DNA of 64,000 nt, from contig CP126195.1 in NCBI GenBank assembly GCA_030272155.1, positions 1,054,001 through 1,118,000 of the forward strand. Reading direction: 5' to 3'. This document shows positions 218 through 61,934 of the stretch, in pieces. Within the stretch, counting starts at the first letter, position 1; every line of letters starts with the position of its first letter. The DNA is from Tetradesmus obliquus. Lineage: Eukaryota; Chlorophyta; Chlorophyceae; Sphaeropleales; Scenedesmaceae. The notes beneath the pieces were generated by a model, which made no database searches, was not told where the DNA came from, and saw only the letters and a list, made by a program, of their open reading frames with translations. The position numbers and the translations under genes are program-made.

Positions 218-2309
218 GCACTGTGGGCTGCCTGCACATCCCCGGGCGCACCTACACAGTGGAGCAGTTCTACCTGGAGGACCTCATTGAGGCTCGCCTG
301 CGCACAGCACTGACAGCAAAGGCGGCAGCAGCAGCAGCAGCAGCAGCGGCACAGGACTCCGGCCAGCGGGACGCGCAATCTCCGCTGTACATAGACGCTT
401 ACAGCAGCAACTACGACGCCAGCAGCTTTGCGGCTTACCTCAGAAGCTGCAGCAGCAGCGGAGGCGTGCTGGGTGCGTCTGCTGCTGCTGGCCGCGTGGC
501 AGCAGGGCAGGGGGAGGCCATGCCGCTTTCGGCGAGGGTGGCTGTGGGCCGTCATGATGTAAAAAACGCCAGGGCTGAGCCGACTCTAAGGGACTATGAC
601 ATCCACCTGAAAGGCTACGTGGTGGGTTTGCTTGTTGTGTTATTTTGTGTCATGTCATGTTATGTTATGTTATGTTATGTTATGTTATGTTATGGTCTGG
701 TGAGGTCTGGTGTGCGGCTGCTGCGTGGCGCTCTGCCACAGAGGCAAGCCACAAGCTTCAGCTGCCAGACGTTGCCCCTGTCCATCATATCAACATATCA
801 AAAACGATTCGATCACGCAGCATTGTAGTACCACAGGCCTGCCACAGTTGAACAGCTGCAGCGCTGGGCCGCAGTGCGGCGCCACGCAATGCCGCAAAGC
901 TCAGCTACAGCTGTCATGCTGCAACATCACAACAAGACACAATACGCTAGTACCTTGTCCTATTATTCTCATCACCTCCCCCTGTTGTGATGGATGGCCA
1001 GCCTGCTGAGGATGAGCACCTGAAGCAGCACTACAGCCCAGCCACAGTGGCCGAGGTGACGAGCTGGGCCGGCTGCATTGTCAATGGTGCTGGGCCTTTG
1101 AAAAAGTCAAAACTCTTCTGCAGTCGCCAAGCTGCAACATCAAAGCACCTCAAACTGATGACAACTGACACTTGCCTGCACTTGTTTTCCTTTTGTGCTG
1201 CATGGCTCTGCCTGGCTAGCCTGCTGAGGATGAGCACCTCAAGGAGAACTACAGCCCGGCAACAGTGGCCGAGGTGTATCGCTGGGCCGGCTGCATTGTC
1301 AAGCCGCGCAACAACGAGGCGCTGCGATGGCAGCACTCGGCAGCAGCGGCAGCAGCCATCCAGTTCATCTGCAGGCACGAGACCGACCCAGGTGCGGCGC
1401 TGTGTGGCTGTATGTGGGGGCCTCAGGATGAATTGGGGCCCTACCTTTGCTTGCGTCAGGCACTGCGTGCACTGTGAATGGATCGGTTGCGGTGCCTCAG
1501 GCCAGATCTGCTGCCTGACCCAGGTGCGGCAGCAAGCGGCTGTGTTTGCATGGGATCAGAGTGCCGCATGTCTTGTGCTACTGCGATGGCAGCACGCGGA
1601 GGCAGCAGTTGCGGCCATCCAGTTCATCTGCAGGCATGAGCCTGACCCAGGTGCGGCTGTGTGTGGCTGTATGTGTAGGGCATCGAAGCAGGCCCAAATA
1701 AACCCTACCTTTGCTTGCATAGGGCGCAGCGTGCAATATTACATTGCAGGCCCAGTTTTGGTAGAGCGTGTTTGAACTGTGAATGTCCATTGCAGCAGGC
1801 ACAATCTGTGCTTGCGTACAGCGCAGCTTGCATTAGTACTCCCAACATGCTGTGCCGCAGACCTGGTCTGCGCGTCTGCGCCCCGACCCAGGGGTGTCAG
1901 TGCGTGGCTGTAGTTGCATGTAAGCAGAGTGCAGCACGGCCACTCATAATCATCATGCTCATGTTTTAGCAGAGCGGCCACTGTTAGTGTAAGGGCAGCG
2001 TCGCTGCAGCATACGCTAGCTGCCTCTGCTAGATCAGTTATCGACACATGGCCCTGCAGCTGGTGCTGCCGCACGCTGTTTGGCCAAGTGAGTGTGGATA
2101 CAAACGTACTTTGCTGGCCACTTCTGACTTGCTGTGACGTGTCTGCTGTGACTGCATGCTACCTGGCACATGCCATCATCAGCATGCTGCTGCTGCTGCC
2201 GGTTCTGCTTCTGTGGCCGCTACTGCTGCTGCCGCTGCTGCTGCTGCTGCCGCAGGCTCTGTGCTGGTGTTCCTGCCCAACTGGCAGGCCATCGCTGACG
2301 TGTACGAGG

Positions 2310-2376
<67 letters not shown>

Positions 2377-5300
2377 GCAGGCTCCGTGCTGGTGTTCCTG
2401 CCCAACTGGCAGGCCATCGCTGACGTGTATGAGGCGCTGCTGCGCGATGATGGGCTGGCTGCCGGGCTGCAGCTGTTTGTGCTGCACAGCCTGCTGCCCA
2501 TGGCGGAGCAGCAGGAGGCCTTTGCACACGCACAGCCAGGTGGGCCACAGGTCTCTGTTTACTTTGATCACTACGTCAGGCATGGGTGATGGTGCTTTCT
2601 GCACAGCCTTGGCTTCTTGTCAACCGAGCCTCCAGTTTCCCCTTATATTCATCTTCTTTGTGCATCAAATGGCTGCAGGCTTCCGCAAGGTCATCCTGGC
2701 CACCAACATTGATAACATCAAATGTGTATGGCTCATCGTACACCTGCTGCCTTTGTTTTGCACGCTGCGCTGTTCACAACTGCAGGCTTCCGCAAGGTGA
2801 TCCTGGCCACCAACATCGCTGAGAGCAGCATCACCTTTGATGACGTGGCGGCGGTGGTGGACAGCTGCAGGGTCAACCTGGCCGACTTTGACGCAGCCAA
2901 CAACCTGCCCACACTCGGGCCGCAGGTGCGGCGCATTTGTTGCTTTTGTAGTGTTCAGTATGTGACACAAAACATACTCAGCCCCTTGCTGTCCGCTGAA
3001 CAATTATGCTGTTTCACTGCCGCCTGCCAATACTACATCTCATCTGAAATCGACTGACATGCAGTTGACTTCTCAAGTATGGCAGACTGTGGCAGGCATG
3101 TGTTTCCAAGCCAATTTCCGCAGCGTGGCACAGCAGCAAAATGCTATGTGGACACACACAACAACACAGCAGGCTCAGGCATACCGCGACCCACCTCCGC
3201 CCGCTCAATACAACCCTGTATGGTTCCTTATTTGTCATCTGCTGCAGTGGGCGTCCCAGGCCAGCCTGTGGCACACACACTCACACTAACACGGACGAAC
3301 AAGCAACACAGCACACATGCAGCTGCCCAGCACCACCTGCTGATAGAGTCCTTTGCCACTGCTCTGTCTCTGCCTGCCAACATTCTTCTTTGCATCCAGT
3401 GGGCGTCTCAAGCCAGCCTGTGGCAGCGCCGCGGCAGGGCAGGCCGCGTGCGCCCCGGCATGGCACCCACCTCATCCCCCGCAGCATGGCACCGAGTCTT
3501 GTACACACAATGTCGCACAACATGCGATCAATAATCCGGCCCTGCCGGCTGACTGAGCGGTTTGCCCTGAACTGCTGCCTGTACCTTACTGTGGCAACAT
3601 GCAGTGGGCATCCCAGGCCAGCCTGTGGCAGCGCCGCGGGCGTGCTGGCCGCGTGCGCCCCGGCATGGCCATCCACCTCATCCCCCGTAGCATGGCGGAG
3701 CAGCACCTTGAGCCCTACGACCCCCCGGAGCTACAGCGCATGCCGCTAGGCAGCGTGTGCCTGCTGGTCAAGTCGCTAGGGTTTGACGATATCAAGGGTT
3801 TCCTGGCGGGAGTGCCGGATCCGCCTGCGGCTGCTGCTGTGGCGGCGGCTGTGGGGGACCTGCAGGCGCTGTGGGCGCTGGATGAGCAGCAGGGGCTGAC
3901 GCCGCTTGGGCGGCTGCTGGCGCTGCTGCCAGGTGGGTTTAGGGATTCAGGTTTTAGATGTCAGGGTTGGTGTTTTAGGGTGCCCTAGTTGCAGATCTGC
4001 AGGCGCTGTGCGCGCTGGATGAGAACCAGAGGCTGACACCACTCGGGCGGCTGCTGGCACTGCTACCAGGTGGGTGAAATGTGTTTGAAAGGTCCAAGTT
4101 TTGAAAGTCGGGGTTCAGGGTTCAGGTGCTCAGGTGTGCTGATCTGCAGGCGCTGTGCGCGCTAAATGAGCTGCTGCTTGGGGTGCTGGACCTTGTGCTC
4201 ACACTGGCAGCAGCAAACTCAACAAACAACAAACCTACTGCTGCTGCTGCTGCTGCTGCTGCAGGTGATCTCCGGCTGACGCGCATGGTCATCTTTGGAG
4301 CGCTGTTGGGAGTGCTGGACCAGGTGCTGACCCTGGCAGCAGCAGAGACAGCAGGAGACGTGCTGCGGCTGCCTAACGAGGCAATGGTGGCAGATCACGA
4401 GGCCCGCAAAGGCGGCAACAGCAGCAGCAGCAGCAGCGCAGGGGGAGATGGTGGCAAGCAGTGGATTAGGAGTGCACGGGACCTGCAGTGGGAGCGGCGT
4501 GCGGAGCTGGCGGCTGGCAGCAGCAGCGACCATGCAGCGGTGCTGGCGGCTTTCAAGGTGGGTGCCAGGAGGGCTGCGGGCGCAGTGACTGTACTGCTGC
4601 AAATAGCGTGCTGCATGCCTCGTAGTATTCAGACGGTGCTGGCGGCCGGCAGGAGTTCACGAGGAGTTTTGCACGAGTTCTGCAGGAGTTCACGAGGAGT
4701 TTTGCAGGAGTTCACGAGGAGTTCTGCAGGAGTTCATGAGGATCGACATAGATGCGGGAGGTGTGAAGGCGCATGGGGTATCCTCATCGTCACACACACA
4801 CCCTCCCTTCACTTACGCGGGTGGCGAGTTTGAACACACCACGCGTAGCTCATTCATTCATTAGATTCGGTTTCAAACTTCACACAAGCGGGCGGATGTG
4901 GCAGTCCGAGCTCGCTGCTTGGTGATACACATCCTGTATCAAATCATAAGATGATTTGCATGGTAAATTGCCTGACTGCAGGAGTTCACGAGGATTGACA
5001 CCGCCCCCATCATGTCATATCAAAAGCACAGGCGGATGTGGCAGTCCATGCTGAGTGACAGGACGCTGGCTGAAGTGCGGCGCGAGCGGCTCAACTACAC
5101 GCAGCTGCTGTACAGGTGCGCGGTCTGGTTGGCTTCAACTGCAGCTCAACTTCAGCTCGACAAAAGCAGGTAGCTAAACTACAGAGAGGTGGACTTAGCC
5201 AGCTGAGCTACACACACTCGGCTGAGCTACACACACTCGGCTGAGCTACACACACTCGGCTCAGCTACACACACTCGGCTAAGCTACACACACTCGGCTG

Positions 5301-7576
5301 AGCTACACACAGCCAACTGAGCTACACACACTCGGCTGAGCTACACACACTCGGCTGAGCTACACACACTCGGCTAAGCTACACACACTCGGCTGAGCTA
5401 TACACACTCGGCTGAGCTACACACACGCAGCTCAGCTACACACACTCGGCTAAGCTACACACACGCAGCTGAGCTACACACACGTAGCTGAGCTGATTGC
5501 ACACAGCTGTTGTGCTAATGACCACAGCGGCACGCAGCTGCTGTACAGTTCAGCGTAGCCACGCACAGCTGCTACACAGGTAGCCTCATGTATACACATG
5601 GCCAGCTGAACCACATGCAGCAAGCTTGACTAAATGCAGAAGGCTACTTTTCAGGCAGGTAGCCGTACAGGTGAGCTCAGGCTGCACTGCATCAGCAGCG
5701 CCACTGCCCGCAGCTGCTGTACAGGTGGTTGCCATTACGCAGACATATCAGGGCCCACCTTTGAACCCAACATGCTGCCGCTGCTGCTGCTGCTGCTGCT
5801 GCTGCCGCCACTGCTGCTAAACTGACCTCAGGGCTGGCTTCCTGCAGCTGGCACCAGGCAGTGCCTGGGACAGCAGCAGCAGCAGCCCTCAGCCCTGGTG
5901 GGCTGGCGGCAGCAGCAGCAGCAGCGGGCAGCAGCAGCAGCAGAGCTATGACGCGCTGTTTGATGCAGATGTAGATGAGCTGCTTGGCCTTGCTGATCCG
6001 CAGCAGCAGCAGCAGCAGCAGCAGCAGATGCCTACTGCAATGGACTGGGCTCTTGGAGAGTATGCGGATGCCGCACAGGGTCTGCACACTTTTGCAACCT
6101 TGGACGATGATGATCTGAGCGGCGGCGGCAGCAGCAGCCTTAACCTTGGCAGCAGCAGCAAGATTGCAGCATCTGGTGCACGTGCTGCTGCTGGTGCATC
6201 CAGGGAGCTGGGGGCGCGGGACTTGAGGCAGCTGATCCGGCAGTACAGCTGGAATGCAGACAAGCCGGAGATGCTGCAGGTGGGCTGTCAACAGAGACGG
6301 CGGATTACTAGGGGCAGCATTACACTGAGGCGGCAGCACAGCTGGGTTATGTTCTGATGTGCAATCAGCGTGCTCGATCAGTTCAGTCCCTATGAGCCTG
6401 TCGTAAGCTCCTGTCTTGCCTTCCAGCTCCTGCGTAGATTGAATCAGGTTGATCTAACAGGTTTTCCTCCACGACTTGTTTTTTGCACGACACCGTGTGC
6501 ATGCTGCAGGCTGCACTAGCTGCCGGGCTGTACCCCAACATTGCATACGTCAAGCCCTCATCAAAGCAAGAGAAAGCAGCAACAAAGGCAGCAGCAGCAA
6601 GTGCGCAAGGCTCCAGGGACTTAAAGGCATCAGAAAAGGCCCTCCACCCACGCAGCCTGAGCTGGACAAGTCCACAGGATGGAAGTGTCTTTCCACACCC
6701 CGGTTCAGTGCTGGGCCAGGCACCACCACAGCACCGGTGAGGGCTGAGGTTTTGTTGTGCTGTGTTAGGGTTCTGGGGTTTCAGGGTGCAGGGTTTGACA
6801 TACAACACAGGATGGAAGCGTCTTTCCACACCCTGGGTCAGTGCTGGGGCAGGCAGGCACGACCACAGCACTGGTGAGGGTTGAGGTTGTGTTTTGCTTA
6901 TTAGGGTTCTGGGGTGTCAGGGTGCAGGGTTTGACATACAACTCAGGATGGAAGTGTCTTCCCACACCCCAGGTCAGTGCTGGGGCAGGCGCCACCACAG
7001 CACCGGTGAGGGTTGAGGTTGTGTTTTGCTTATTAGGGTTATAGGATTTAGGGTGCAGGGTCTGTTATGACCCTCGAAACGGCAATGTATCCTCCTGCTG
7101 TGGTTCAGTGCTGGGGCAGGTGCCGCCAAATCACGGCTGAGTGGCGTGAAGATACGGACAATGTAAGCCAGCAGCTGGCACCAGCAATTGCTCACGTTAC
7201 ACATGTTGCACATGTGCACTGTACAGTGCTGCTGGCAGGTGCCGCTGTGCAGCTGGCATGCGTGGACCAGAGCCAATACAGCTGGCTGCTGAGCTGCAGG
7301 TGTGAACCGGCACTGTGTTGTGAGGCTGGCGTACACCAGATACATTCTTTGATGAGAGAGGATAGTTACAAGTGGGTCCTGGCACCATCGAGGCACAACA
7401 AGTTGAACACATGGTCTGAGACCAGAAAAGGAGAGTGAGCACCGTAGAACACAATGCACACCCTTGAACGCCACACTGCTTTTTATGTCGCATCAACAAG
7501 ATATTGCTGGTGGAGTCTGACAGCGCATGTTGTACATAGTTATATGCAGCCAGTCATGAACAGCTCTCACTACCTG

Positions 7577-10647: not shown

Positions 10648-10682
<35 letters not shown>

Positions 10683-11582: not shown

Positions 11583-11622
<40 letters not shown>

Positions 11623-14606: not shown

Positions 14607-14638
<32 letters not shown>

Positions 14639-23440: not shown

Positions 23441-24918
23441 GCGGCAGTCGTCTGGCGGCCACAGCATGCTGGGGCTTGGCAGAAGTGGGGTGAGTGCGCC
23501 TCAGGGCTGCTGTGCAGCAGCAGCAGCGGCAGCAGCATTTCGAGCCATTGAGGATGTGCGCCAGCGTGCTGTGTACAGCAGCAGCAGGAGCAGCGCGCCT
23601 TCACAGCTAGCATGCAGCTTGCAGCAAGACACTGGCCAAGCTGCCATGGTGCTACACATACAGTGCACAACGTTGTTTGACTCTGAGCTGACGCTGGTCC
23701 TGCATCACTCGCGTGGGCTCCTCCTTTGTCCTTGTGCTGTTGCAGGCTGCTGAGGCTGATGAGGTGCTGAATGCGGAGGCGCTGCAGCAGCTGCTGGGCG
23801 GCTGCAGCTGTGGCACTATATGACTGCTACTATCATCTTTGACAGCAGTGCCTTCCTGTGCTGTTGCAGGCTGCTGAGGCGGATGAGGTGCTGGATGCAG
23901 AGGCGCTGCAGCAGCTGCTGGGCGGCTCCGGCTTCAACGCAAAAGCAGCGCCCACCACGGGCGGCGGCTGGGCAGGCAGCAGCTTCTGGAAGTACAAGTC
24001 TGCTGCTGCTGCCATCGCGCGGCTGGGCGGCAGCGCAGCAGCAGCAGCTAAGAAGGCGCCGGCGGCAGGCAGCAAGGCCAGGTGGGGCGTGCGGCAGGCC
24101 TTGGGTGTGTCTGCCAGGTGGCTTCAGCAGTGTATACAGCAACAGCTGCTGTGTGATGCAGCTGATGTTAGCAGCAGCGCAACAACCCCTGCAGCTGCAC
24201 TGCCGCTGTGTCGCTGGCATCGTGCATGGGATCGCCCTTGCTGCCCTTGCTGCGCACAGCAGCAGCGTTTCTCCACAAATGAATTGAAATCTTGCCTCTC
24301 TTTATATTGATGTCAGCCCGCGGTCAACATTTGTGCTCTTTGATGTCTTCATTTGCTGCAGGCCCGGCCAGCAGCGCATTGACTTTGAAAGCCTGCCAGA
24401 GTTGCCGGAGGGCGCGTTGGAGCGCGGCAGCCGCAAGCAGACGTGCCTGGTGGGCGCGGCTGCCACAGCACCAACCCTGCTGCCGCAGGACCTGCACTAC
24501 CAGGTGAGGCAGCAGCTGGCTGGCTGGCTTGCTTGTTTGCGTGTTTCGGCAGGTGAGGCTTCTGCCGCCGCCACAGCGCCAACTCCTGCTGCCACAGGAC
24601 CTGCACTAACAGGCGGGGCTGCAGCTGGCTGGCTGGCTGGCTGGCTGGCGGGCGGGCTTGGTCACAAATCAAGGCTAGTTGGTTTGTCATCTTTAGGTGT
24701 GGGGTTTAGGGCATATATCTGCAGCCGCAGAACCTGCACTGCCAGGTGGGCCTGGCCGGCGCGTCTAGCCCAACACGCGTCTAGCCCAACACGCAAACCG
24801 CAACTTTGTTGATGAGCTGGATGCGGTGCTCCTGCCGTCTGCGGCGGGCACCTACGCTGCTGCCAGAGGACCAGCACTTCCACATCAGTTCTGCGGCTCT
24901 TGACAGGGCTGTTATAAC

Positions 24919-25658: not shown

Positions 25659-26754
25659 GCAGGCGACTTGTCAGTGGGTGACCCAGGCTTCAGCAGCAAC
25701 CTGGGCGCGAGCGAGGAGCCCGGCGGCAGCGAGTGGTGGGGCGCGGAGCACGCGCTGCTGAGTGCGCCCAAGCGCAACGCAGGCCTGGCGGTGAACTTCA
25801 ACCGCGCAGCAAAGCAGGTGAGCTGCAGGGTGGGGTGGGGTGCTGGGCTCATCTGCCATCTCAGCATTGGCATGGTGAGGTCAGCAAAGCATGCAGCAAA
25901 CTTTTTGCCGATCAAGGTAACTTCTGCTTATCTTTGAGCTCCAGTTGGGCCGGGTTGTAAAAACACTCCTTTTTTGCCCTTTGAACCACACGCTCTGCAC
26001 CATGTGCCTTGCTCTACTGCCAATTAACAGCCCCATACTACATTCTTATGCACGCAATCATACTTCAGCAACTGCAACTGCATGCCTGTATGCCTGCCTG
26101 TACTGTTGCGCAAGTTGACATGCGTGCGCTGAAGGATCTGCTGTGAGCATGTGCCACACCACGCACATGCAAGTGCACGCATACACACACCAGCACATGT
26201 GCATTTACCATGCTTAAAACTGTCATATTACACAAGATATTTACGCCTGCTGTTGCTGCTGCTGCTGTGTACTTGTGTAACTGTTCAGGTTGACGTGCGT
26301 GCCCTGAAGGACCTGCTGTGGGACAGCCTGGTCACCGCCAACTCACTATCTTCACTATCGAAGAACTTTCTGTCGCACAACACGGCTGCATCACCGCTGC
26401 CCGTACTGCTGCTGCGTATATGCTGCGCAGGTTGACGTGCGTGCCCTCAAGGATCTGCTTTGGGACAGCTTGGTCACGGCCAACACGCGCAAAACATCTG
26501 CCGCCCACAACGAGGACAGCAGCAGCAGCATGGACACAGACGCAGCTGCAGCTGCAGCACCCGGCTCCCAGCAGCCAACCATTCCTTTCCAGGAGGTGAT
26601 TGTGAGTGTGCCGCAGCGCAGCGCTGCCGGCAGCTTGGAAGACGTGTCTGTGCACATGTGCTTCATCTGCCTGCTGCACCTGGCGAACGAGAAGGGGCTG
26701 GTCATAAAGGCGCAGGAGGACCTGGCCACGCTCAACATCTCAAACGTGGCTTGA
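20584..26754 (+). CDS. CAPH: Condensin complex subunit 2 (CAP-H, kleisin)
   Basis: The kleisin that bridges SMC2 and SMC4 in condensin and drives mitotic chromosome compaction. Eleven exons: 20584-20670, 20755-20810, 21061-21416, 21971-22228, 22455-22787, 23035-23489, 23870-24081, 24362-24503, 24955-25168, 25663-25817, 26431-26754; all phases match and the sum is 863 residues plus TGA. Family blocks in order: NDDAAEKASVRRK; FEQCIKLAAENKITDKNVW with DAGVTIYSKRVD (SMC2-binding end); VDPLFHKMSALFDEGGAKG; IDFESLPELP; LLPQDLHYQASNLGQLFLKP; VNFNRAAKQVDVRALKDLLW; and the winged-helix end FICLLHLANEKGL. Length is near that of animal and plant CAP-H, with added Gln, Ala and Asp/Glu tracts. The start is the first ATG; exon 1 ends exactly at a phase-0 donor. 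Several introns hold partial exon copies. Confidence 0.95.
21400..21616 (+). repeat. Three tandem copies of the exon 3 end of CAP-H
   Basis: A unit of about 95-100 bp ending GCAGCAGAG before GTGAGAGG (real donor 21417), GTAAGAGG (about 21508) and GTGACAGC (about 21609). Confidence 0.9.
23746..23935 (+). repeat. Duplicated start of CAP-H exon 7
   Basis: The acceptor and AAEADEVLxAEALQQLLGG coding segment is present at 23746-23806 (ghost, soon followed by a stop) and at 23870 (real). Confidence 0.95.
24465..24890 (+). repeat. Copies of the exon 8 end of CAP-H
   Basis: The segment coding APTLLPQDLHYQ with donor (24467-24510) has diverged copies at about 24578-24616, 24720-24750 and 24850-24887 (the last reads APTLLPEDQHFH). 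Confidence 0.8.
25040..25360 (+). repeat. Duplicated acidic Gly/Asp exon of CAP-H
   Basis: GGWGGDGYGDDDGEFG plus the GYNAG end and donor are coded in the real exon (to 25168) and again at 25265-25357, where the segment is also open and has a GTAGGTGA donor. Confidence 0.9.
26115..26480 (+). repeat. Three copies of the last CAP-H exon start
   Basis: The segment coding VDVRALKDLLW occurs at about 26116-26144, 26289-26345 and 26431 (real). The second is preceded by a TTCAG acceptor. Confidence 0.95.
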
Positions 26755-32621: not shown

Positions 32622-32653
<32 letters not shown>

Positions 32654-35200: not shown

Positions 35201-35564
35201 CTTGAACCCACCGCCGCCACGATGAGCCAGATGACGATCCACTCCAGCCGAGCTGATGCATTCACCCAACCAGCCACAATCATCCTTGTCACACAACATA
35301 CATGACCAATATCTGCACCATGCCAGCCATGCACCCACCGCCGCCACGATGAGCCAGATGACGATCCACTCCAGGCGCGACATGTGCTGGTTGTTCTGGT
35401 GGTCGCGCACCATCTCCAGCATCTCCTGCAGCACGCCGTACCTGGTGGTGGCAGCAGCAGCAGCAGCAGTGGCGACAGCAGCAGCAGTGTTTGCATTTGG
35501 ATGCATATTGGTTGTTCTGGTGGTCACGCACCATCTCCAGCATCTCCTGCAGCACGCCATACCT

Positions 35565-35603: not shown

Positions 35604-37051
35604 GTGTTTGCATTTGGATGCATAGTGGTTGGGGAGTGGGTCACGCACCATCTCCAGGTTTCTCCTGCAGCACGCCGTACCTGCAGCAGCAGCAGCAGCA
35701 GTGGCGACAGCAGCAGCAGTGTTTGCATTTGGATGCATATTGGTTGTTCTGGTGGTCACGCACCATCTCCAGCATCTCCTGCAGCACGCCATACCTGCAG
35801 CAGCAGCAGCAGCAGCGGTGTTTGCATTTGGATGCATAGTGGTTGGGGAGTGGGTCACGCACCATCTCCAGAATCTCCTGCAGCACGCCGTACCTGCAGC
35901 AGCAGCAGCAGCAGTGGCGACAGCAGCAGCAGTGTTTGCATTTGGATGCATATTGGTTGTTCTGGTGGTCGCGCACCATCTCCAGCATCTCCTGCACACG
36001 CCGTACCTGGTGGTGGCAGCACCAGCAGCAGCATGTGGAGTTGTTGCAAGGCGTGCACTAGCCTGCAGTGACAGCAGTAACCGTAGCAGCAGCAGCAGCA
36101 GCAGCGCGCCTGCATATTTATCCAGCACATTGCTGCAGGTGATCGGCACATGAGCAGGCAGCTGCAGAATTCCTGTAGCTGAAGACAGGCCGACCAGCCA
36201 GCCCCTGCAAGGTGCACTTCTGGAGGTCAAACTGCAGATGCGCCTGACCGTGTGTTGAGCACCTCCACTCTGGTATGGAGCTCCAGGTACTCATGGTACC
36301 CCAAAACCCCATAACACCAACAACCCTAAACCCCCTGGCGGCCGTAAAGCCTGTAATTAAACCATGAACCCTCACCGTGTGTTGAGCACCTCCACTCGTG
36401 TGTCCAGCTCCAGGTACTCACACACACGCTTGTGCAGCACCTGCATGCAGCAGTTGAACACAGCACGAGGCAATATTTGCATATGCGACGTGAGCCGATA
36501 CATGTACATGTACCGCAGCAATACATACATGCCGCACCGCACGCGAATGCTGCAAGAAGCAGCCCGGCAGATGGGCAACCTTGACGTTTCACTACACGGA
36601 ACCCCAGTAATAGCTGTTGACCCAGCAGGTCACCACAGCAGGCAACCCGCTGACAAGGCACTGCATAACAATGTGTAATGTGACAGCACACATCAGCAGC
36701 TTGCACTGCTGCACAGCCTCGCACCTGCAGGTGGTCTGGCGAGCTCTAGAAAAAACTCTGGCATGTCAAGCCCCACCCTCGAGCGCTCACCACACTCCCA
36801 CATTCCACACCAGCAACACACATGCAACCCCTGTGCAGTCGCCACTGCAGATGGTCTATGAGGCTGCTTCAGCACCGTCATGGCTGCAGCTGCAAAAGAA
36901 CGCTGCCAGTATGCACCAAAAAGTGTACACGCAACATAGCTTTTGCAGCCTCGCACCTGCAGGTGGTCTGGTGCGCTCCAGAAGAACTCGGGCACGTCCA
37001 GCACCACACCCAGCAGGTTCACCGCACTGCGCTGCAGGAACACCTGCGGGG

Positions 37052-37102: not shown

Positions 37103-37434
37103 CTGAGGACCAAAGCACCCGCAGGCAGCAAGTATGAGACCACACACAGTGATGCTCATTATGTACTAGACACATGCTCGTTACAAACATGCATATGATT
37201 CAGGTCTGCAGAATCTGCCGCATCTGCCCAATGGGGCGTGCCACCTGCTTCCTGCTGATCTGCAGGCTCACGATGAACACCATTCAAACATGAACTAGCC
37301 GCACAGATTTGCAGACCAAGATGTTCCGCCGCACCTGCCCTATGAGCCGTGCCACCTGCTTCCTGCTGATCTGCACGCGCCCAAACTCAGCCAGCGCCTC
37401 CGGCAGGTCGCGAGTCACCTCCACGATGTCCTGC

Positions 37435-37498: not shown

Positions 37499-40400
37499 AG
37501 TAATTCTGACATATTATGACGCCGCACCACGGCAACCGCTGAGTGCATGTGGCGGAATAAGTACCACATTCAATAACAACTGAAGTCGCTGACCCCGCAC
37601 CCTTCACCTGCAGCCGCCTCGTGCATGCGCCGCAACTAGACACCAAGCAGTCAAGCGGCCAACTGCCAATCATAGACGAACCCCCCGCACCTGCAGCCGC
37701 TCCTCGTAGCACCCAAGCAGCGTTGACTGCGCCAGGGCATGGCTGATGGCCAGCTTCACCTGCGGCGGTGGCAATCACAGGCCCGCAACAACTGGATCAG
37801 CGATTTAAGTTGATAAAGCGGTTTGCAGCAAGGAATACGAGCATGCAAGTGCTGTGGCACAGCAAGCGCCGCAGAACACCGTGCGAGCAGCATGCCAGCA
37901 TGCACAAAACTGCATGTGTGCGGCGTTTGCAGTCTGAGCAGGAAACATCAAACATGTCCACTCGACATGTGCACCAAACCATGTCGGCCCAACTCTTCTA
38001 AGCGCACCTGGTGGTCTGCTGCGTACGTCTTGTTGAGCGTTATGACGTCATTTTGGATGTGCGGCGGCTCCACAGTGCTGTAGTGGAAGGTGAACCTGCA
38101 GCAGCAGCGACAGCAGCATCGTCACTTTCAAGTTTCAAAAACCTGAAAACGAACCTCCTGCAGGGTCCAGAGGGCCACTGCTTGCAGGATAGGGCACATT
38201 ACTTTCCTTGCTTTGTTGCCAGCAATATCAATGCTCAACCATCCAAGCATTAATGCATGGATAGCGATGCCAACTCGTGGCTCAACTTGTGGCGATACAG
38301 CATAGAAAGCGCCACATTAAGGGGTTGTCACCGCTAGCTCTGCCACTGCTGCAAATCACCAAATGCCAAGTCGGCCATGTCATCTGCTACTAACACGTTA
38401 CTGACATGTCACCAACATTTTGTACTCACGCGTCGATCTCGATTTCGTGCAGGTCCAGCGGCTCCAGCTTGCAGGGCCCCATCACCGCCCAACAACAAAC
38501 ATGTTGGTGCATGTCACTAACATCTTACCAACATGTTACACTCACTCGTCGATCTCAATCTCATGCAGGTCCAACGGCTCCAGCTTGCAGGGCCCCATCA
38601 CCGCCCAACAACAAACATGTTGGTGCATGTCACTAACATCTTACCAACATGTTACACTCACTCGTCGATCTCAATCTCATGCAGGTCCAGCGGCTCCAGC
38701 TTGCAGGGCCCCATCACCGCCCAACAACAAACATGCCAAGTCAACATGCCAAGCTTCACTAACATGTCACTAACATCTCACTAACATGTTACACTCACTC
38801 GTCGATCTCAATCTCGTGCAGGTCCAGCGGCTCCAGCTTGCAGGGCCCAATCACCGTCAGCTGCAGCGCCTGCTCGTCGGCAGCGCTGATGCCCCAAAAC
38901 ACCACCGTGCCGTAGTCTGCAGACAAACACAACAGCAGCGGTAGCAGTGAGCAGCGGCAGATTGTCAGCAGCAGCTGCAGCGCCTGCTCATTGGCAGCAC
39001 TAATGCCCCAAATCATCGCCGTGCTGTAAGCTGGCAACAGCAGTAGCAGTAGCAGCAGCAGAGGCCGCCGCAAGCAGAAGCGATGATTTTCAACTCATAA
39101 TCACATACTTCCTCTGTTCCTCCGTTTTCTATGCACTTGCTGCTGTGGCTGCTGCTGCTGCCCTCAGCAGCTCACCAAAGAAGAAGATGTCGCCGCTGTT
39201 GGGGTCGTCCAGCTTAGGCGTGGCATGAACCACGTCCTGGTAGGTGTGCGTCTCCAGCTTGGGGTACTTGGCCTGCAAGGGGGTGGGAAGGACATGCATT
39301 TGCAGCTGTGTGTTAGATGTCGGCATGCACTTGCAGTGGCTGCAACATCATTGGAGGTGTGCATCTCCAGCTTGGGGTACTTCACTTGGCCTGCAGGCAG
39401 TGCAGTTACATACAGCTGCATGCTGTAAACCCTGCAAGACCGGTTGCCAAGTCCACAAAACAAGTGGAATGCACTGGTATGTGTGCGTCTCCAGCTTGGG
39501 GTACTTGGCCTGCAATGGATTGACGGTGATAGAGTTGAAGTCAAGAAAGTTGGGTTCCTATGTTACCATGACACACAACCAAGCAGCTGCAGGCGAGCGA
39601 GGTGTAGCATGCACGCTGCCACAGTGTCTCCAATGTCCATGTGCACTGTACAGATACACCCTAACCAGCACGCTGGCTCTTTCTCACCTTCAGCAGGGCC
39701 TCAATCTTCTTCCGGTCCAGCCCCTCCGCAACTGTCACCGCAGTGATCCGCCCCTTCGTGCCCGGCCCTTCCCCATCCAAGTCCTCAAAGATCGTCGGCG
39801 CCGGCACCGGCCGCCCGCTGCTGCTGCCGTAATCGATGCCGCCGCCGCGCTGCGCTGACGTCAGCGGGAAGGCCAAAGCCCCCGGCTGGCTGCTGCTGCT
39901 GCTGCTGCTGTAGGGGTTGGGCTCTGGCGGCTGCCCCTGCTGCGGTGCCCGCGAGAGCGGCACAAACTTGTCTTTCTGGCGCGCTGCTGCTGGCGGCTGC
40001 AGGAGAAGGAAGGGCAAGAAAGAGGGCAGAGAGCGACAGGGAGGGGTCAGGTGCGAGCCGTGCAGCATGTGGTTGAAAATGACAAGCAGTGAGTGGAGAG
40101 TGAGATCACGAAGCGTTAGTTGGTTGATGAGCCTTGCCCAGCTGCCTTGCAGCAGCAGCTGCTTGTTAGTGGAGCTGGCTGTTTCTCCGTGTCATTGTTC
40201 TGCTTAAGCTGCCAGCAGGCAGCCATGTTGCTTGTTCCTGATGGTGCAGTGCACGGTGCACTGCAGCCTGCCTGTATGCTTGCATTTTGGGCTGCTGCAT
40301 CCACAGCTGCAGGGTGCAGCGCAAGAGGCGCACGCGGCCGCAATGCTTTCATTGCTGCGACAGGTGTGGCTAGTGCAGTGCGGTCATCAACACTACTCGG

Positions 40401-47899: not shown

Positions 47900-47934
<35 letters not shown>

Positions 47935-55610: not shown

Positions 55611-58600
55611 TCAGCCCCTGATATCCTTCTCAAACTTGTCCAGCCGCTGGACCCGCTTGAACCCCAGCGTCACAAACACGCTAAACAGCGCCGCCAGGCT
55701 GTAGCACGCGCCAGCTGCAAACTCCTGCCCGCCATGCAGCGCCAGCTGCGTCCCGACATCTAACAGGCCCACTGCTGCAATCGTGTTGATGGTTGCCACC
55801 TGCAGCACGCCTTGGCGCCGTGCTGCCCTCTCTCCTTCCAGCACTCGCACCCGCAGCTTCAGGTTGCCTGTCTCTAGCTGCTCCAACGTGCTGTCAATGC
55901 GCGCTACGCGCAGCGGCATGGCTGCAGCTGCTTGCGTCACCTGCAGGAGATAGGGCAAGCAAGCATGTACAAGCATGCGGTCAGCAGCAGTGCCAGACGG
56001 CGACGCGAGGCAGGCACATGTAGAACACATTCTGTGGCAGCTGCTAGTATGAGACACAGCCCAGTCACTGCATGCGAAGCAGCTGCGCCGCACGGCGTGC
56101 CACCTGCATCTCTCCTGCAAGCACCACACGCGGTGCTCACCTCTGTGGCCTGCTGCTGCAGCTGCTCTATGATGAAGCCCTGCTGCCCCACATCCTGCAG
56201 CTGCAGCAGCTCCTGCGCATAGGGTGTAGCCACCTCGCTGAAGTTGTAGGCAGGGTTCAGGGTCTTGCCGATGCCCTCAAGTGTGCTGAAGGCGCGCAGC
56301 ACAAAGGTGAAGGTGGCAGGGAACCTGAAGGGCTGGTCGATCGCGATCGCAAACAGGTCCTCGCCGATTTTCTGCAGTGCACATGCAAGGCACAACAGGC
56401 GTCAGCACAAAAGGGTGACACATGCGTTGAGTGTGGTGTGCAGCGGAGTGGAAGACACCGCCTGCATGTCTGCGCCATACGAGTAAGTATGCGCATCATG
56501 TGCATGGGACACCACACGGTTCATTGCCGCACACAACATGTACAGGTGCTGTTCCTGAGATACGCTTACCTCATGACCCATACCATGCGAAACAACAGTA
56601 TGCTCACCCCGATGGCTTTCTGGCGCTCCGTCTGGCGCGTGATGTTCTCCAGGAAGTAGCAAACATACATAGCATCAACTATGCTGCACAGTGCGCAACA
56701 TCCGACTACACATTCCCTCATGCTCACCCCGATGGCCTCCTGGCGCTCCGTCTGGCGCGTGATGTTCTCCAGGAAATAGCCGATGGCGCGCCGGATGGAC
56801 AGCATGTCGCCGGTGGGCGTGATTACGCCCAGCTCCACCAGCGCGCGGATGACGCCATTTGTGTCCTTCCTGCAAAGGCAAGGCGTAGCAGGTTACAGGC
56901 GATGGTGTACTGTGCGTCTTGCTTGGTCTTGTTGGCCTAAGTGCAACGTCACGGCGCTGCACCCATGCGCATACCCTATTTGCATGTATGTGATAGTTTG
57001 GTGCATGCTAATCGCTGAGCTGAGCTGCTGCACACGGCGGGTGTCCTCACTCACTTGTAGATGCCATAGAAGACGTCCAGCAGCCGCTCCCGCACGTTGG
57101 GCACAATCTGCGGGGCAAAAACAGCAAGTGCAGATGCGTTGCATGATGTACTTACGATGCTTTGCCAATTTGAGTTCAACACAAGTGTGAGCGCTTTCAG
57201 AAAGCACGACCTGCTATGTGAGGTGACCTGCCCAGCAAGCAAACCACAGACAGCATGTGGAACACCTTGGCCACGTGGTAGATGTTTGAACCTGATACCC
57301 ACCTCGCCCATCATTCCATAGTCATAGAACAGCAGCCTGCCCTGGGCATCTACTGACACGTTGCCGGGGTGGGGGTCGGCATGGAAGAAGCCATGCCGCA
57401 GCACCTGCCAGCAGTACAGGCAGCCAAAACATGAGCAGTTAGGATCCTGCAAGTGCGGCTGGGATCCCTGCTGCCACAGATGCAGTGGCCCAGCTGCATG
57501 CCTTTGAAAGCCGTGTCCAGCCAGCCGACAACAGCCTGCTGGCCTGCAAGAATACACCACGCCTTGACTGACAGTCAGTGCAGGCATTACAACCAGGCGC
57601 TGACTCCCTGGCTCATGGCTGCGTCATTTGCCTGCTCCCTCGTGCACATGTCTGGCTGCACACTCCTACAAGCATCAAACACCCTTTGCTCAGTCGCAGT
57701 GCCATGCACCGCTTCACTGCCTCACCTGCATCAGGTAGGCCTCTCAGTGGCCCGCCACGCCACCAACGACATCATTGTGTTTGTAGCAGCCCTTTTCAAC
57801 CCATAGGCAAAGGAATGCAACACAATTGCCTCACCTGCATCAGGTAGGCCTCAGTGGCGCGCCGCGCCACCAGCTCCGTGGAGATGCCGCCCGCCTGCAG
57901 CCGCTGCATGTCGGTGATCTTCACGCCTGCATGCATGCAAATTGAATCAATAACGGCAATATAACAGCGAGCAATGGAAAGCAAGCATGGCGACCCATGA
58001 ATGCATCAAGAACATGGCAGCAGCCTACAGCTGCTGCTTGTCGGTGATCTTCACGCCTGCAGGCACCTGCAAGCCAAGGCAAGTTTTCATAGAGCACATG
58101 GGAACAGAAGGAAGCACGCGTGGCGACCTTGTGCAACGCCATGCAAGAATAGCAGTGTGGAGCAAATGCATGTCCGTGATCTTCAGCGGACGACATGAAA
58201 ACTTCCTGATAGGCCCAACATTTGTTATGCCTCACACCTGGCAGGTACTCCAGCGTCAGCACGCGAGGCGAGCTGAACTCCCAGTGCATCACCAAAACAC
58301 GCACATTCCTGTGTGCAAGGCTGCTGCCAAACCACACGAGGCCCTGTGTTTGCCTCGCCCAGCCAAGCGTGTGTCAGCGCAGCACATCCACATACACAGT
58401 CCAGGATATCAAGCTCTGCTGCAACGCTACTGTCAACTGACACACATGAAAAAAGTCGTACACATCTGCCCGGCACCTGGCAGGTACTCCAGCGTCAGCA
58501 CGCGCGGCGAGCTGAACTCCCAGTGCACCACCAAAACACACACACATGGACATCAGCCCTTTGTGCCAGGCTGCTGCCAAACCACACGAGGCGCTGTGTT

Positions 58601-60292
58601 AGCCTCGCCCAGCCAAGCGCGATGTATCAGCGCAGAATATTCTTACACAAACCCACCAGCGTCGACCTCCGCTGCACCGTTGCCGCCAACCGACATGAAG
58701 CTCATAGTTTTAAGCAGCAGATATCTGCCCCGCACCTGGCAGGTACTCCAGGGTCAGCACGCGCGGCGAGCTGAACTCCCAGTGCACCACCGGGGTGCGC
58801 ACCCATGGTGTGTCGCGGAAGTTGCGCCTGAAGCGGTCCGCGTTCCTGCCCTCGTTGATGTAGTCAATTTCATCGTACAGCACAGCTGCACACTCCTGGT
58901 AGATGCCCTGCAGAGCAAGAGATGTTTGATGGCAAGGGAAGACAAGAAACAATGGTCAAGATGTCATTGATGTAGTCGATCTCGTCATGTCAACAGGACG
59001 GCTGCGCACTCCTGGTAGATGCCCTGCAAAGGTTGAAAGCTATAGCAGACAGAGCACAAATAAAGGTGATAAGAAAGAGGTATGTCAGTAACCAGCAAGC
59101 ACGCAAGTAGCACAGATGGAGATGCACCTGTAGAGATGGACAGGCAGCCACAAGCCACGTGCACAGCAATCACACAGTCATACAGAACTACACACGCTAC
59201 GGTTACACAACTCACAATCCTTGTGTAGACAGCCCAGCCACCGCCCACCAGCAGTCACATGTGAACATCCAGTGGGTGAACATTCATTATGAACTTCAAT
59301 GTGAACTTCATGGTTCAATTCCTATCCAAGTTCCCACCTTGAAGTCGCGGTTCTCGTCGCCCTTGTCCAGCTGCTCCGCGAGGATCCTCAAGTTGTTCAG
59401 GTCGATGTCAAACAGCTGTTTCAGCCCCGGGCGCTGCACCTTGACCACCACCTCCTCCCCTGTCAGCAGCACAGCGCGGTGCACCTGGCCCAAGCTGGCC
59501 GCTGCAATGGGCCTCCTGTCAAAGCTGCGGAAGAGCTGCAGCAGCACACGGAAGCAGTGCGGCGCAGCGCAGGCGTGAGGGGGAGAGCTAGCAAGCGACA
59601 GCTTGGGAAAGTGGAGGGGTAGGTGTGTTGGGAAGGCGGATGCTGCGACAGCGGGCAGCACAGCACATGCGTTAGACGACTACCACCTCCTCCCCAGTCA
59701 GCAGCACGGCGCGGTGCACCTGGCCCAGGCTGGCCGCTGCGATGGGCCTCCTGTCAAAGCTGCGGAAGAGCTGCAGCATATCACGAGGAAGCAGTGCAGT
59801 GCAGCACATGCGTGAGGGGGAGAGCTAGCAAGCGACAGCTTGGGAAAGTGGAGGGGTAGGTGGTTGGGAAGGCGGATGCTGCGACAGCGGGCAGCACAGC
59901 ACATGCGTTAGACGACTACCACCTCCTCCCCAGTCAGCAGCACGGCGCGGTGCACCTGGCCCAGGCTGGCGGCTGCAATCGGGCGCCGGTCAAAGCTGCG
60001 GAAGAGCTGCAGCCGCACAGCACGGTAACCAGGGGGCGGCAGCACAGGCGGGACTGTCAGAACCGGCACTGCAAACCGAAGGTGTGAGCTGACCAGTGAA
60101 GCTCTGGTGACTCTTGCAGCCGTCTTCCCATATCAAATTCCCTTTGCATGCCAAATCAGGCTGACGTTGTGCTGCTGTCCTGCCTCACCTTGGACACTGG
60201 CTGCCCCAGGTCCCGCTCAATGATGGCCTCCGCCTTGTCAGCTGAGAAGGCCGGAACGCGGTCCTGCAGCTTGCCCAGCTCATCCACAAACT

Positions 60293-60354
<62 letters not shown>

Positions 60355-61934
60355 CACAGCGGCGTCAGCCATGCATCGTTACAAAGCCGATGCTGGCCAA
60401 AGTGATCAAGGCAGGGGCCAGGCCTATCTTGACCCAGAATAGGTTAAAATGCAACCTGGGGTCGCCGCTCGCTGCTGCTCCAAATAGCAGTCGACGCCCC
60501 AGTCACATGCGGCTGCTGCTTGCTACACCCCTCACCTCTGCTGGGAACAGCGCTGGGAACAGGGCTGAGCGCGTGCTGCACAGCTGCCTGACCTTGATGA
60601 ATGTGGGCCTCATGCCAACCCAATGAATGAAACATGGACCAGCATTGCTTGAAGGTGCGCAGTTATGCTTTTACCATGCTTAGAATCGTCCTATGTACAT
60701 GGCAACCATACTACATGAAGACTGTGGCTACCTCTGCTGGAAACAGACCTAAGCGCGTGGTGCAGAGCTGCTCAACTCAGGCAAGGCGCCACATCTCAGT
60801 GCCACCTCGGGTCACAAAGCATTGCTGTGCTCACCTCTGCTGGGAACAGGTCAGAGCGCGTGCTGCAGAGCTGCCCAACCTTGATGAAGGTGGGCCCCAG
60901 GTTGAGGATGGAGTCCAGCAGGTAGCTGGCAAGGCTGCGTGCACGCGCTGAGCGCTTCTCATCTGCAAGCAAACGGCACTCAGTATGTCAGTGTGACAAA
61001 CCGCTGGCAAGCGTGTGCAAGGCTATACAATCCATGACACCATGCAGCAGCTTGCAGTCATAGTTGCAACCAGCGTCACCAGCCGCTTGCACAACAAGCC
61101 AGGTGATTATGCACCAAAACAGTAGCACCACGGCTAAGTAACACATATAACATGATATATTCAACAAATAACATCCTCGAACCTGTGAAGCCGCCTGGGT
61201 AGCTCCACTTCTGCTCCAGCAGCCACAGGCGCGTCCTGAACACTGCAAAGAACACCCATGTGTCGGTGTTGCGCTGCGTCACGTTGTAACTGTCCTGCGC
61301 CCACTTGAAATCTACGTCGGTGGGGAAGTCTTGCTGCAGGCAGGTGACAACAATGACAAGCAACAGAGCAGCAAAGCACGGCAGGCAGCAGCCACAGCAC
61401 GCAGTGCGGCAGGTGTGTGAGTAAGTGGGCAGGCATGGAGGGAAAGGTGGGATGCAGAAAGCGATATGTACCCAACTGCCCACATGCTGACACTGCTCAA
61501 GTTGCACACGTGCACGTGACATATAAATGCGATAGCTGAGATGGGGCTGCTGCAGCTTTGAACTCTGACGTGTCAGCCAGTGTTTGTTCCTGTGCAGACA
61601 CTGACGAGGGAAGTCAGCTGCTCACCTGGCTGCTCTCAGCCATCATGGTTGCTAGCCGGTCCCTAGAAGAAGCAGAAGATAGGCTGCTTGCGGCGCCTGC
61701 TGCTGCTGTCTGCACAACGGTCAGTGTTGGTACGTTGCGCCGAGCCACCACCAAACCAGTGCTGCTGCTGCTGCCATTGCTGCTGCTGTATGAAGTGCTG
61801 GTGTTGCCGCTGCTTCTGCTTTCCGCATCAAATCGGCTGTCACGCGTGCTTGTTGTGCCATTCCTGCTGCTGCTGCTGCCGTCTGTGCTGCTGAGTGGAC
61901 TGTTTACTGTTGAAGGTGCCCCCAGCGGCCGCAT
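55611..61934 (-). CDS. ABC1/UbiB atypical kinase, plastid ABC1K7/ABC1K8-like
   Basis: Atypical kinase of the ABC1K family; plant relatives act at chloroplast membranes in lipid, iron and stress homeostasis. Exons: 61934-61626, 61333-61183, 60962-60835, 60290-60189, 59535-59338, 58907-58736, 57926-57835, 57404-57303, 57107-57055, 56869-56728, 56371-56141, 55940-55611; the sum is 669 residues in one frame. Family marks in order: [36 protein letters not shown] (KxGQ), [12 protein letters not shown] (Ala-rich loop), [38 protein letters not shown] and [28 protein letters not shown], then [14 protein letters not shown]. Two hydrophobic segments lie near the end. The Ser/Thr-rich start fits a plastid transit peptide. 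An acceptor at 61967 leaves a further 5' exon possible. Many introns hold exon-edge copies. Confidence 0.95.
56600..56780 (-). repeat. Duplicated end of ABC1K exon 56869-56728
   Basis: The segment coding [14 protein letters not shown] with its GTGAGC donor occurs at 56775-56722 (real) and 56662-56605. Confidence 0.95.
57720..58080 (-). repeat. Copies of both edges of ABC1K exon 57926-57835
   Basis: The end (TEAYLMQ plus GTGAGG) is copied near 57765-57722; the start (VKITD with acceptor) is copied near 58075-58030. Confidence 0.9.
58225..59035 (-). repeat. Three copies of the end and two of the start of ABC1K exon 58907-58736
   Basis: The segment coding [17 protein letters not shown] occurs at about 58790-58736 (real), 58533-58478 and 58292-58235. 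The exon start ([10 protein letters not shown]) is copied at about 59032-58990. Confidence 0.95.
59465..60015 (-). repeat. Three copies of the start of ABC1K exon 59535-59338
   Basis: Acceptor plus [20 protein letters not shown] and [11 protein letters not shown] coding occurs at 59535 (real), about 59776-59690 and 60010-59925. The intervening spacers are themselves near-identical (about 59580-59690 and 59805-59925), so the unit of about 240 bp was copied recently. Confidence 0.95.
60291..60352 (-). repeat. (CTG)n tract at a 3' splice site
   Basis: About 20 triplets, CTG in the gene sense, run straight into the acceptor of ABC1K exon 60290-60189. Confidence 0.95.
60525..60905 (-). repeat. 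Three copies of the end of ABC1K exon 60962-60835
   Basis: The segment coding [15 protein letters not shown] with its donor occurs at 60890-60829 (real), about 60785-60727 and 60610-60532. Confidence 0.9.

Follow-up and report, generated by a model that had tools for sequence, protein, structure and literature searches.

Tandem copies of exon edges in the introns of Tetradesmus obliquus and a possible route of intron lengthening

Minisatellites (VNTR) are tandem repeat arrays. Local duplication within a gene, including its splice signals, has been described as internal gene duplication (PMC3443670, PMC9860276), and tandem genomic duplication of AGGT segments as a route of intron gain (PMC3443670, PMC2891723). 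In tandem exon duplication, as characterized in PMC9013439, copies of exons lie in introns at an identity of at least 80%. Duplicated-exon bases are given there as 0.08% in fly, 0.06% in worm and approximately 2% in human, and the exon-edge copies reported here amount to 4.7% of the exonic bases in our sample, a comparison between figures obtained by different methods.

The DNA analyzed here, called the window throughout, is a stretch of 64,000 nt from Tetradesmus obliquus (GCA_030272155.1, contig CP126195.1, positions 1,054,001-1,118,000 of the forward strand). The predicted, spliced end of an exon is referred to as the live edge, and an extra copy of an exon end and its splice site sitting in the adjacent intron is referred to as a ghost. 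Gene models were built ab initio by a gene finder trained on the T. obliquus genome itself. The main sample covers 264 kb over six chromosomes, comprising the window and five other places (R1-R5), from which 374 of 498 predicted exons were kept (window 101/142, R1 53/73, R2 53/65, R3 58/66, R4 52/63, R5 57/89); low-complexity windows, predicted exons shorter than 25 nt and predicted exons repeating a longer neighbour were dropped. Edge scans of these 264 kb and of a later 50 kb (C10, C12 and C15) left out edge exons shorter than 30 nt and introns shorter than 70 bp, and ghost matches were scored as identities over the 36 positions at the edge (e.g., 32/36). The window genes discussed below are supported by Pfam matches: helicase (HA2_N, Helicase_C, OB_NTP_bind), CAP-H (Cnd2, 1.5e-86), hydrolase (Abhydrolase_3), DUF155 and ABC1K (ABC1, 1.5e-107). 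The gene called BTB-like was scanned in two parts, of which the C-terminal one matched Septin (1e-15) and the N-terminal 394 residues had no Pfam match. The ABC1K protein typed without its ghost copies aligns to solved relatives, with no ghost-sized insertion at the junctions by 59535, 58907, 57926 and 57404; at the junction by 60835, the solved chain is longer by four residues.

Exon-edge ghosts are a real feature of the window. The original prediction of more than twenty arrays built from exon boundaries was borne out, with a predicted exon edge in 36 of the 43 window arrays, compared with 20.3 expected by relocation and a maximum of 28 in 400 relocations. The 58 ghosts listed occur in 35 of 95 introns and span 996 to 60776, which fits the anticipated range of 987-60905. 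A fixed-length duplication unlinked to exons, the first idea considered, was dropped since most arrays contain exon edges. Over the 264 kb, a near-copy in the adjacent intron was found for 39 of 300 donor edges and 29 of 302 acceptor edges, and for only 0.13% (donor) and 0% (acceptor) of edges when unrelated introns served as control. Edge windows were duplicated in 117 of 1049 cases (11%) versus 271 of 9986 (2.7%) for intron windows, and only one of 1273 deep-exon windows was. The edge/intron ratio was 4.1 at a cut-off of 28/36 and 3.9 at 33/36 with ghost windows excluded from the intron class, and 2.5 and 2.2, respectively, with ghost windows counted as intron. The excess of exon-boundary over other intronic duplicates, on which the original prediction hinged, thus holds at 2.5 to 4 times in these 264 kb but was absent from a cruder per-window count in which ghost-lying windows were classed as intron (edge 7.9%, intron 7.4%, intergenic 8.2%, exon 4.2%), and which was later replaced by the edge-versus-intron window comparison and per-intron counts.

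Ghosts were carried by 64 of the 338 introns sampled (about one fifth) and were present on C1, C4, C5, C6, C10, C12 and C15. The edge scan of the new places gave 12/63 (C10 4/28, C12 8/35) and that of the C15 piece 4/24, which is reported apart because its ghosts had been noticed beforehand. In line with the expected lengthening of introns, ghosts are associated with intron length (2 of 95 introns below 200 bp, 39 of 84 between 400 and 1000 bp, and 5 of 18 above 1000 bp carry one). As a gene-wide habit, the phenomenon extends to several window genes and other chromosomes, but it is not universal: two of the five other places were nearly ghost-free (0/49 and 1/51 introns) and showed no excess in the relocation test (0/2 and 1/5 arrays with an exon edge). 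The scarcity of ghosts in these two places runs against the explanation favored below.

The periods of 60-300 bp first proposed could be narrowed: spacing from the live site peaks at 100-140 bp, and a smaller rise follows at 210-255 bp. The best ghosts fell within 100-140 bp in 39 of 68 cases (264 kb), and the nearest ghost lay at a median distance of 126 bp for 41 donor edges and 127.5 bp for 32 acceptor edges, with a median spacer of 81 (quartiles 67-149). The copies had been thought to carry exon edge, splice site and some intron; intron-side similarity to the live edge, expected of head-to-tail minisatellite units alike over their whole length, was detectable in 60 of 114 ghosts (264 kb) but undetectable in the other 54, which often share the splice consensus only and include some whose aligned part is 95-100% identical. 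Similarity thus ends near the splice consensus in about half of all ghosts. Arrays of the form (exon end + spacer)n + (exon end + another intron side) occur, most clearly in a ClpP gene (Pfam CLP_protease). Among 24 edges with multiple ghosts, intron-side similarity was present in the nearest ghost at 18 and in the farthest at 9, and the live edge was matched better by the nearest ghost at 17 edges, better by the farthest at 5 and equally well by both at 2 (p 0.017). Neither the step of ~115 bp nor the similarity stop near the splice consensus had been foreseen, and the same applies to the synonymous bias and the non-aligning acceptor pyrimidine tracts described below.

On the forward strand, the helicase gene contains acceptor-type ghosts at 996..1058 (218 bp upstream of live start 1220; 32/36; 57 nt exon-like, no intron-side similarity), 2673..2709 (107 bp upstream of live start 2786; 35/36; ctgcag plus 31 exon bases) and 3406..3464 (live start 3617; 30/36; codon-position differences 1/0/3), as well as a donor-type ghost at 4012..4075 (live end 3932; 32/36; differences 2/0/6). 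A genome search with the intron of the ghost at 2673..2709 gave no match beyond its own exon edge. Three donor-type ghosts form a tandem array with a TRF period of 136 in the OB-fold part (6854..7142; live end 6736; distances 137, 269 and 400), the farthest being without intron-side similarity. The CAP-H gene, also on the forward strand, has an acceptor-type ghost at 23740..23803 (live start 23870; 33/36; 124 bp), three donor-type ghosts at 24585..24889 (live end 24503; distances 109, 242 and 380; in-frame stop in the nearest) and two acceptor-type ghosts at 26108..26342 (live start 26431; 317 and 142 bp). In the farther of the latter, the aligned part ends in a stop, and the nearer is the sole other match of the exon starting at 26431 in a genome search.

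The hydrolase, DUF155 and ABC1K genes lie on the reverse strand. In the hydrolase gene, three donor-type ghosts at 28396..28710 (live end 28775; distances 124, 248 and 373) show one to three amino-acid changes each (codon-position differences 1/0/4, 3/0/7 and 0/1/7), and four acceptor-type ghosts are found at 28965..29355 (live start 28925; distances 85, 187, 289 and 424). Donor- and acceptor-type ghosts at 31322..31752 surround the exons 31441-31503 and 31797-31919 at distances of 113, 113 and 243, with an uncertain assignment of live and ghost copies, and the acceptor-type ghost at 32560..32625 (live start 32482) covers 20 codons with four synonymous changes and no other. The DUF155 gene carries donor-type ghosts at 35206..35250 (live end 35339; 36/36; no intron-side similarity), 36243..36293 (live end 36376; 30/36; 127 bp) and 37218..37267 (live end 37335; 32/36; 111 bp; AT replacing GT). 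Three tandem donor-type ghosts with intron-side similarity and a TRF period of 116 follow at 38424..38719 (live end 38799; distances 137, 253 and 369), and of two acceptor-type ghosts at 39355..39515 (live start 39272; 113 and 237 bp), the farther resembles the live edge more (35/36) than the nearer does (29/36). In the ABC1K gene, the donor-type ghost at 56602..56660 (live end 56728) consists of 53 exon bases plus gtgagcat, where similarity stops, and the acceptor-type ghost at 58993..59029 (live start 58907) shows codon-position differences of 0/0/3 over 31 nt, past which an indel and then more exon-like sequence are seen by eye. Two acceptor-type ghosts at 59711..60012 (live start 59535; 235 and 471 bp) both keep a 20-residue peptide, and two donor-type ghosts lie at 60542..60776 (live end 60835; 103 and 287 bp), in one of which a stop immediately precedes the aligned part. 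Genome searches with the ghosts at 56602..56660 and 58993..59029 returned only themselves and the local exon edge, and the one at 35206..35250 additionally matched a 19-base run nearby. The BTB-like gene, which had been counted among the array genes, contains two ghosts only (30/36 and 26/36).

Differences between ghosts and live exons partly resemble those between coding sequences. By codon position they number 59/44/171 over 72 edges (one of 73 was left out of this count), and 160 of 264 (61%) are synonymous versus 0.376±0.028 simulated for neutral ghosts. The bias appeared both in curated window genes (87/137 versus 0.378±0.044 simulated) and outside the window (70/115 versus 0.354±0.040), and the later 50 kb, including the C15 piece, gave 54/101 synonymous differences (25/21/56 by codon position). 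CpG or context mutation bias was examined as a source of the third-position excess and rejected, as trinucleotide context predicts no excess. Stops account for 5 of the 264 differences, near the neutral number (5.8 simulated), and some ghosts have indels or frameshifts; the ghosts as a class are therefore not kept as reading frames.

Splice sites do appear to be multiplied, as had been claimed, insofar as predicted splice-like sites are concerned: GT is retained in 55 of 67 donor-type and AG in 39 of 47 acceptor-type ghosts (264 kb). Near the far end of the 47 acceptor-type ghosts, the best donor does not surpass those at randomly placed intron positions (p 0.98), acceptors at the far end of the 67 donor-type ghosts are not enriched over such places (p 0.57), and ghost-to-live distances are even modulo 3 (35/42/37). 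Splicing as cassette exons is therefore unlikely on sequence grounds, so that alternative exons, one of the roles initially considered for the copies, are not supported. The same two observations led to the rejection of mini-exons, in-frame extensions and intron gain of the AGGT type. Judged by their structure, the ghosts are probably not spliced into messages. Donors of ghosts without intron-side similarity score 2.70, below real donors (3.90) and above other GT (1.10). In the 22 acceptor ghosts without upstream similarity, the overall score (-0.09) falls between real (1.38) and other sites (-1.53), and the pyrimidine tract (0.634 versus 0.603 in real acceptors and 0.491 at other CAG) does not align with that of the live acceptor. 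Such full tracts speak against the explanation favored below, since a passive relic should lose its tract, although the overall score of these acceptors is intermediate.

With respect to the described systems, the ghosts are best read as a variant of internal gene duplication. The duplicated segment lies in the same gene, as in internal gene duplication; unlike there, the ghosts would lengthen an existing intron from the edges inwards, the step has a preferred size and the copy differences are partly coding-like. With AGGT intron gain the ghosts share the tandem copying of exon sequence at splice sites, but the ghost piece already holds a working splice site, and its far end lacks the enrichment of donors or acceptors that a new intron spanning two copies, with its donor in one and its acceptor in the other, would require. 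Intronic exon copies at 80% identity or more also recall tandem or mutually exclusive exons; however, ghosts are exon edges with one splice site each, not complete exons with both splice sites and the frame kept. Some ghost arrays are clean tandem repeats (periods 116 and 136) like minisatellites, whereas about half of the ghosts are without intron-side similarity and the arrays sit on exon edges.

Tentatively, and at somewhat less than an even chance, we propose that introns grow at their edges by repeated duplication of the exon edge in steps of ~115 bp, and that ghosts exchange sequence with live exon ends. Growth would occur at both intron ends, each step adding a unit of ~115-125 bp made of some 30-60 or more exon-end bases, the splice site and a spacer that is mostly 60-80 bases long; an initial event would have placed this non-homologous spacer between the two copies. 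The live edge would stay spliced and the other copy be left in the intron as a ghost, and older ghosts would tend to sit deeper in the intron. Units are sometimes amplified in tandem, for which unequal exchange by way of the duplicated exon portion is the probable mechanism. Although not spliced exons, ghosts would keep swapping sequence with the live edge or its alleles by gene conversion or unequal exchange, and would therefore hold mostly changes that passed protein selection, which may be the cause of the synonymous bias; once exchange stops, the ghost would decay. It counts against this explanation that the putative exchange would have to take place between copies of only 30-60 bp whose flanks are unrelated, and that the gene models are ab initio. 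By our reckoning, bidirectional conversion alone would not lower the non-synonymous share this far; in addition, either exchange would have to expose bad ghosts to selection, or divergent alleles would have to be available as a pool.

Recombination of diverged alleles or haplotypes, whose exons align and whose introns do not, could by unequal exchange leave the exon edges of both parents in tandem, which would account for coding-type differences at birth, for pyrimidine tracts that do not align and for similarity that stops at the splice site. A similar pattern is seen in two LHC paralogs (exons 94-96% identical, no BLAST intron match beyond some 40 edge bases). We nevertheless consider this origin unlikely, because the exon and introns tested have no second copy in the assembly, RING-like paralogs with exons diverged by 13-15% still align over exons and introns at 78% along one 1920-column stretch, ghosts without an intron match are often closer than those paralogs, and the 115-bp step and tandem arrays are not given by it alone. 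A diverged paralog as the source was discarded, the C15 matches being a CAG repeat, and global intron alignment was set aside as uninformative because unrelated introns score about 0.8 on aligned columns as well. Neutral tandem duplication (minisatellite birth) spanning exon edges by chance, with plain decay of the ghosts thereafter, would agree with the 60 of 114 ghosts having intron-side similarity, the several clean tandem arrays, the near-neutral number of stops and the cruder count without edge excess. This possibility appears quite improbable in view of the 54 ghosts without detectable intron-side sequence, some nearly or fully identical in the aligned part, the synonymous share of 0.61 versus 0.38±0.03 and an edge preference that persists at 33/36 identity; for about half of the ghosts, an origin as old tandem duplications that simply decayed was rejected.

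Coding-type differences, retained GT and AG and retained pyrimidine tracts might instead indicate functional ghosts, i.e., alternative exon ends, mini-exons or regulatory decoy sites under selection, but this is rendered decidedly improbable by the unenriched far-end sites, the even modulo-3 distances, the stops and frameshifts in some ghosts, and donor scores below those of real donors. A non-homologous spacer between direct repeats is also what would be left by an introner, a mobile element that creates introns, if its target duplication were long. Introners imply many similar introns in unrelated genes, and four of four ghost introns or spacers searched against the 104.7 Mb genome, in a search that skips very common words, had no matches other than themselves and places up to some 300 bases away; they are therefore not introners, and this origin has very little probability. 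Hardly more credible is an assembly artefact (haplotype switching or polishing): the evidence comes from one assembly, but the fixed step, multi-copy arrays with independent substitutions, the order by similarity and the occurrence on seven chromosomes argue against it.

A broader reading, possible yet doubtful, is that untranslated intron sequence is held to the protein constraint on the adjacent exon through continued recombination with that exon, the exon edge being a recombining array of which one member is spliced at a time. If true, introns would be a renewable bank of spare exon ends. The phenomenon as a whole would offer a concrete route for intron lengthening from the edges and a testable case of selection acting on non-coding sequence through recombination; it also makes the choice of the spliceosome among several near-identical edges ~115 bp apart directly testable. 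As the order of copying can be mistaken, differences polarised at 24 of 26 multi-ghost edges are only suggestive: by codon position, they number 9/6/20 in the ghost lineage (18 synonymous, 16 not and 1 stop), 3/1/22 in the live lineage and 4/1/10 where ambiguous.

Duplication in the sampled genes of Tetradesmus obliquus is centred on exon edges, has a preferred step, includes tandem amplification and tends to form ladders. A two-strand gene finder was trained on the window (C5:1054001-1118000) and on five 40-kb places (R1 to R5, on C1, C2, C3, C4 and C6) of the 104.66-Mb, 17-contig genome. The trained models used splice donors of the GTGAG/GTGCG kind, and those in the window contain the expected domains. 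With three later places (50 kb), the survey of ghosts, i.e. extra copies of an exon end plus its splice site inside the adjoining intron, covered 314 kb of 104.7 Mb in one assembly with ab initio gene models. A probe of 30 exon and 6 intron bases, taken from each live (spliced) edge, matched that edge's own intron at 26/36 or better for 39 of the 300 donor and 29 of the 302 acceptor edges, compared with 0.13% and 0% for unrelated introns. The later places gave 16/87 (0.12% unrelated), with ghosts at 4/28 edges in C10, 8/35 in C12 and 4/24 in C15, the last not a blind place as its ghosts had been noticed beforehand.

Altogether, 114 ghosts at 73 edges were identified in the 264 kb of the window and R1 to R5. 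Ghosts and live edges share an ungapped identity of about 0.9 close to the splice site, against a background near 0.3. For donors it declines to 0.66 at intron bases 5-9, 0.53 at bases 10-14 and 0.39 by base 30; for acceptors it is 0.92 across the five intron bases next to the site, then 0.68 and 0.53 over the next ten. The frequency of introns with a ghost differs strongly between places: 35/95 in the window, 7/46 in R1, 0/49 in R2 (L006-L009, C2:1000001-1040000), 1/51 in R3 (L010-L013, C3:1000001-1040000), 6/46 in R4 and 15/51 in R5. R2 and R3 are thus nearly ghost-free, although R2 contains recognisable genes (TamB and WD40 by Pfam). Ghost-bearing introns are long, with a ghost in 2/95 introns below 200 bp and in 39/84 of 400-1000 bp.

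A scan with 36-base windows revealed a duplication peak at the splice site, duplicated windows amounting to 117/1049 at edges, 271/9986 in intron outside ghosts and 1/1273 in deep exon. This excess is not due to exon copies decaying more slowly, since the edge/intron ratio is still 3.9 at 33/36 identity; when ghost windows are counted as intron, the ratios become 2.5 and, at 33/36, 2.2. A cruder per-window count showed no difference between edge and intron. Self-comparison within 2 kb yielded 104 direct-repeat arrays in the 264 kb, whose smallest spacing was 105-119 bp in 27 and 120-134 bp in 20; an alignment-free lag spectrum gave the same peak plus its multiples. A predicted splice edge lay inside 150/240 repeat pairs, based on models that may call ghosts exons. 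With cleaned gene models, arrays within 700 bp were relocated within genes: an exon edge was spanned by 73/108 arrays versus 48.6 expected, including 36/43 in the window (20.3), 10/14 in R1 (6.2), 0/2 in R2 (0.4), 1/5 in R3 (2.8), 10/21 in R4 (6.9) and 16/23 in R5 (12.1), and intron-only arrays numbered 10 versus 30.5 expected.

The median distance to the nearest ghost is 126 bp for donors and 127.5 bp for acceptors, and 35/41 successive ghost spacings are 99-150 bp. At edges with several ghosts, the nearest is closer in sequence than the farthest in 17 cases versus 5, with two ties. Similarity to the live edge on the intron side is present in 60/114 ghosts and absent in 54/114. How the two kinds could connect may be seen in a ClpP gene, in which four units, including the live one, have exon part and spacer in common, and the last copy shares with them only the exon part and gtgagt.

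Ghosts have no exon anatomy. At its far end, their exon-like part shows no enrichment of the second splice site that a mini-exon or an intron gained by AGGT duplication needs, and ghost distances are even modulo 3. The ABC1K protein, entered without ghost copies, shows no ghost-sized insertion relative to solved relatives at four ghost-bearing junctions. Introners were also considered; four ghost introns or spacers had only local matches in a genome search and are thus not such mobile elements.

The differences between ghosts and live edges are coding-like, falling 59/44/171 at codon positions 1/2/3 (best ghost, 72 edges). Among classifiable differences, 160/264 (0.606) are synonymous, compared with simulated shares of 0.376±0.028 for neutral ghosts, with substitution rates taken from intron-intron pairs, and 0.773 for ghosts constrained like exon. 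The excess also appears in window genes with domain support (87/137), outside the window (70/115) and, more weakly and with no stops, in the later set (54/101); trinucleotide context did not predict the third-position excess. Stop-making changes (5 versus 5.8 expected for neutral ghosts) are about as numerous as under neutrality despite the synonymous excess, implying that the ghosts are a mixture or have passed through a changed regime. In 22 ghost acceptors without upstream alignment to the live acceptor, pyrimidine content is 0.634 (real acceptors 0.603; other CAG 0.491, p 2e-9) and the site score lies between real and other sites, which suggests that they were formerly genuine splice sites, not random insertions. 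CTGCAG is a frequent reading of predicted acceptors, and CAG/CTG runs are frequent throughout the window on both strands.

Ghosts would go on exchanging sequence with live exon ends, directly or via alleles without the ghost, and such exchange would open them to protein-level selection. The first event, at which two copies would end up with unrelated intron-side sequence, lies outside this scheme; it would be accounted for by unequal exchange between alleles, provided that these had diverged enough.

Among the listed search results on tandem duplication with intron gain, green-algal exon duplication, introners, internal duplication, intron creation and filler DNA, judged by title and abstract opening and including few subscription papers, there was no report of edge-limited ghosts with a fixed step; novelty is not thereby proven. 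The closest comparable figures, for exonic sequence that has additional copies at 80% identity, are 0.08% of exonic bases in fly, 0.06% in worm and ~2% in human (PMC9013439); ghost bases here equal 4.7% of exonic bases (4734/100104), obtained by a different method.

Several further features were also observed. Unlike most arrays, a 19-bp unit array of 15.4 copies (window 5202-5494) has no predicted exon edge. A perfect 71-bp direct repeat occurs 206 bp apart at L011:6096-6166 and L011:6302-6372, on a piece of R3, and the end of the latter copy coincides with an edge of a single-exon gene model. The long minus-strand gene at window 9203-19904, called BTB-like in the original prediction, has a septin-type GTPase part towards the C-terminus; its N-terminal part gave no match in Pfam. 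Tandem paralogs at window 44000-56000 have a conserved C-rich end (RING-like by eye); in the predicted frame the three codon positions have diverged to a fairly similar degree (0.10/0.17/0.11 and 0.14/0.14/0.16), pointing to a wrong frame or relaxed copies. A 71-73-bp array is common to two tandem paralogs (window 48209-48407, 2.8 copies; 52670-52962, 4.1 copies). LHC genes are present, and the closest solved relatives of one are chlorophyll a/b proteins; together with the GTGAG/GTGCG donors, these genes indicate a green alga. One of three LHC paralogs carries an extra intron (L032:6027-6275), a recent gain or loss, inside an exon that the other two keep in one piece; downstream of it, the exon has 94-95% identity to theirs (BLAST). 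The intron contains its own repeat, 75% alike, with a spacing of 91 bp.
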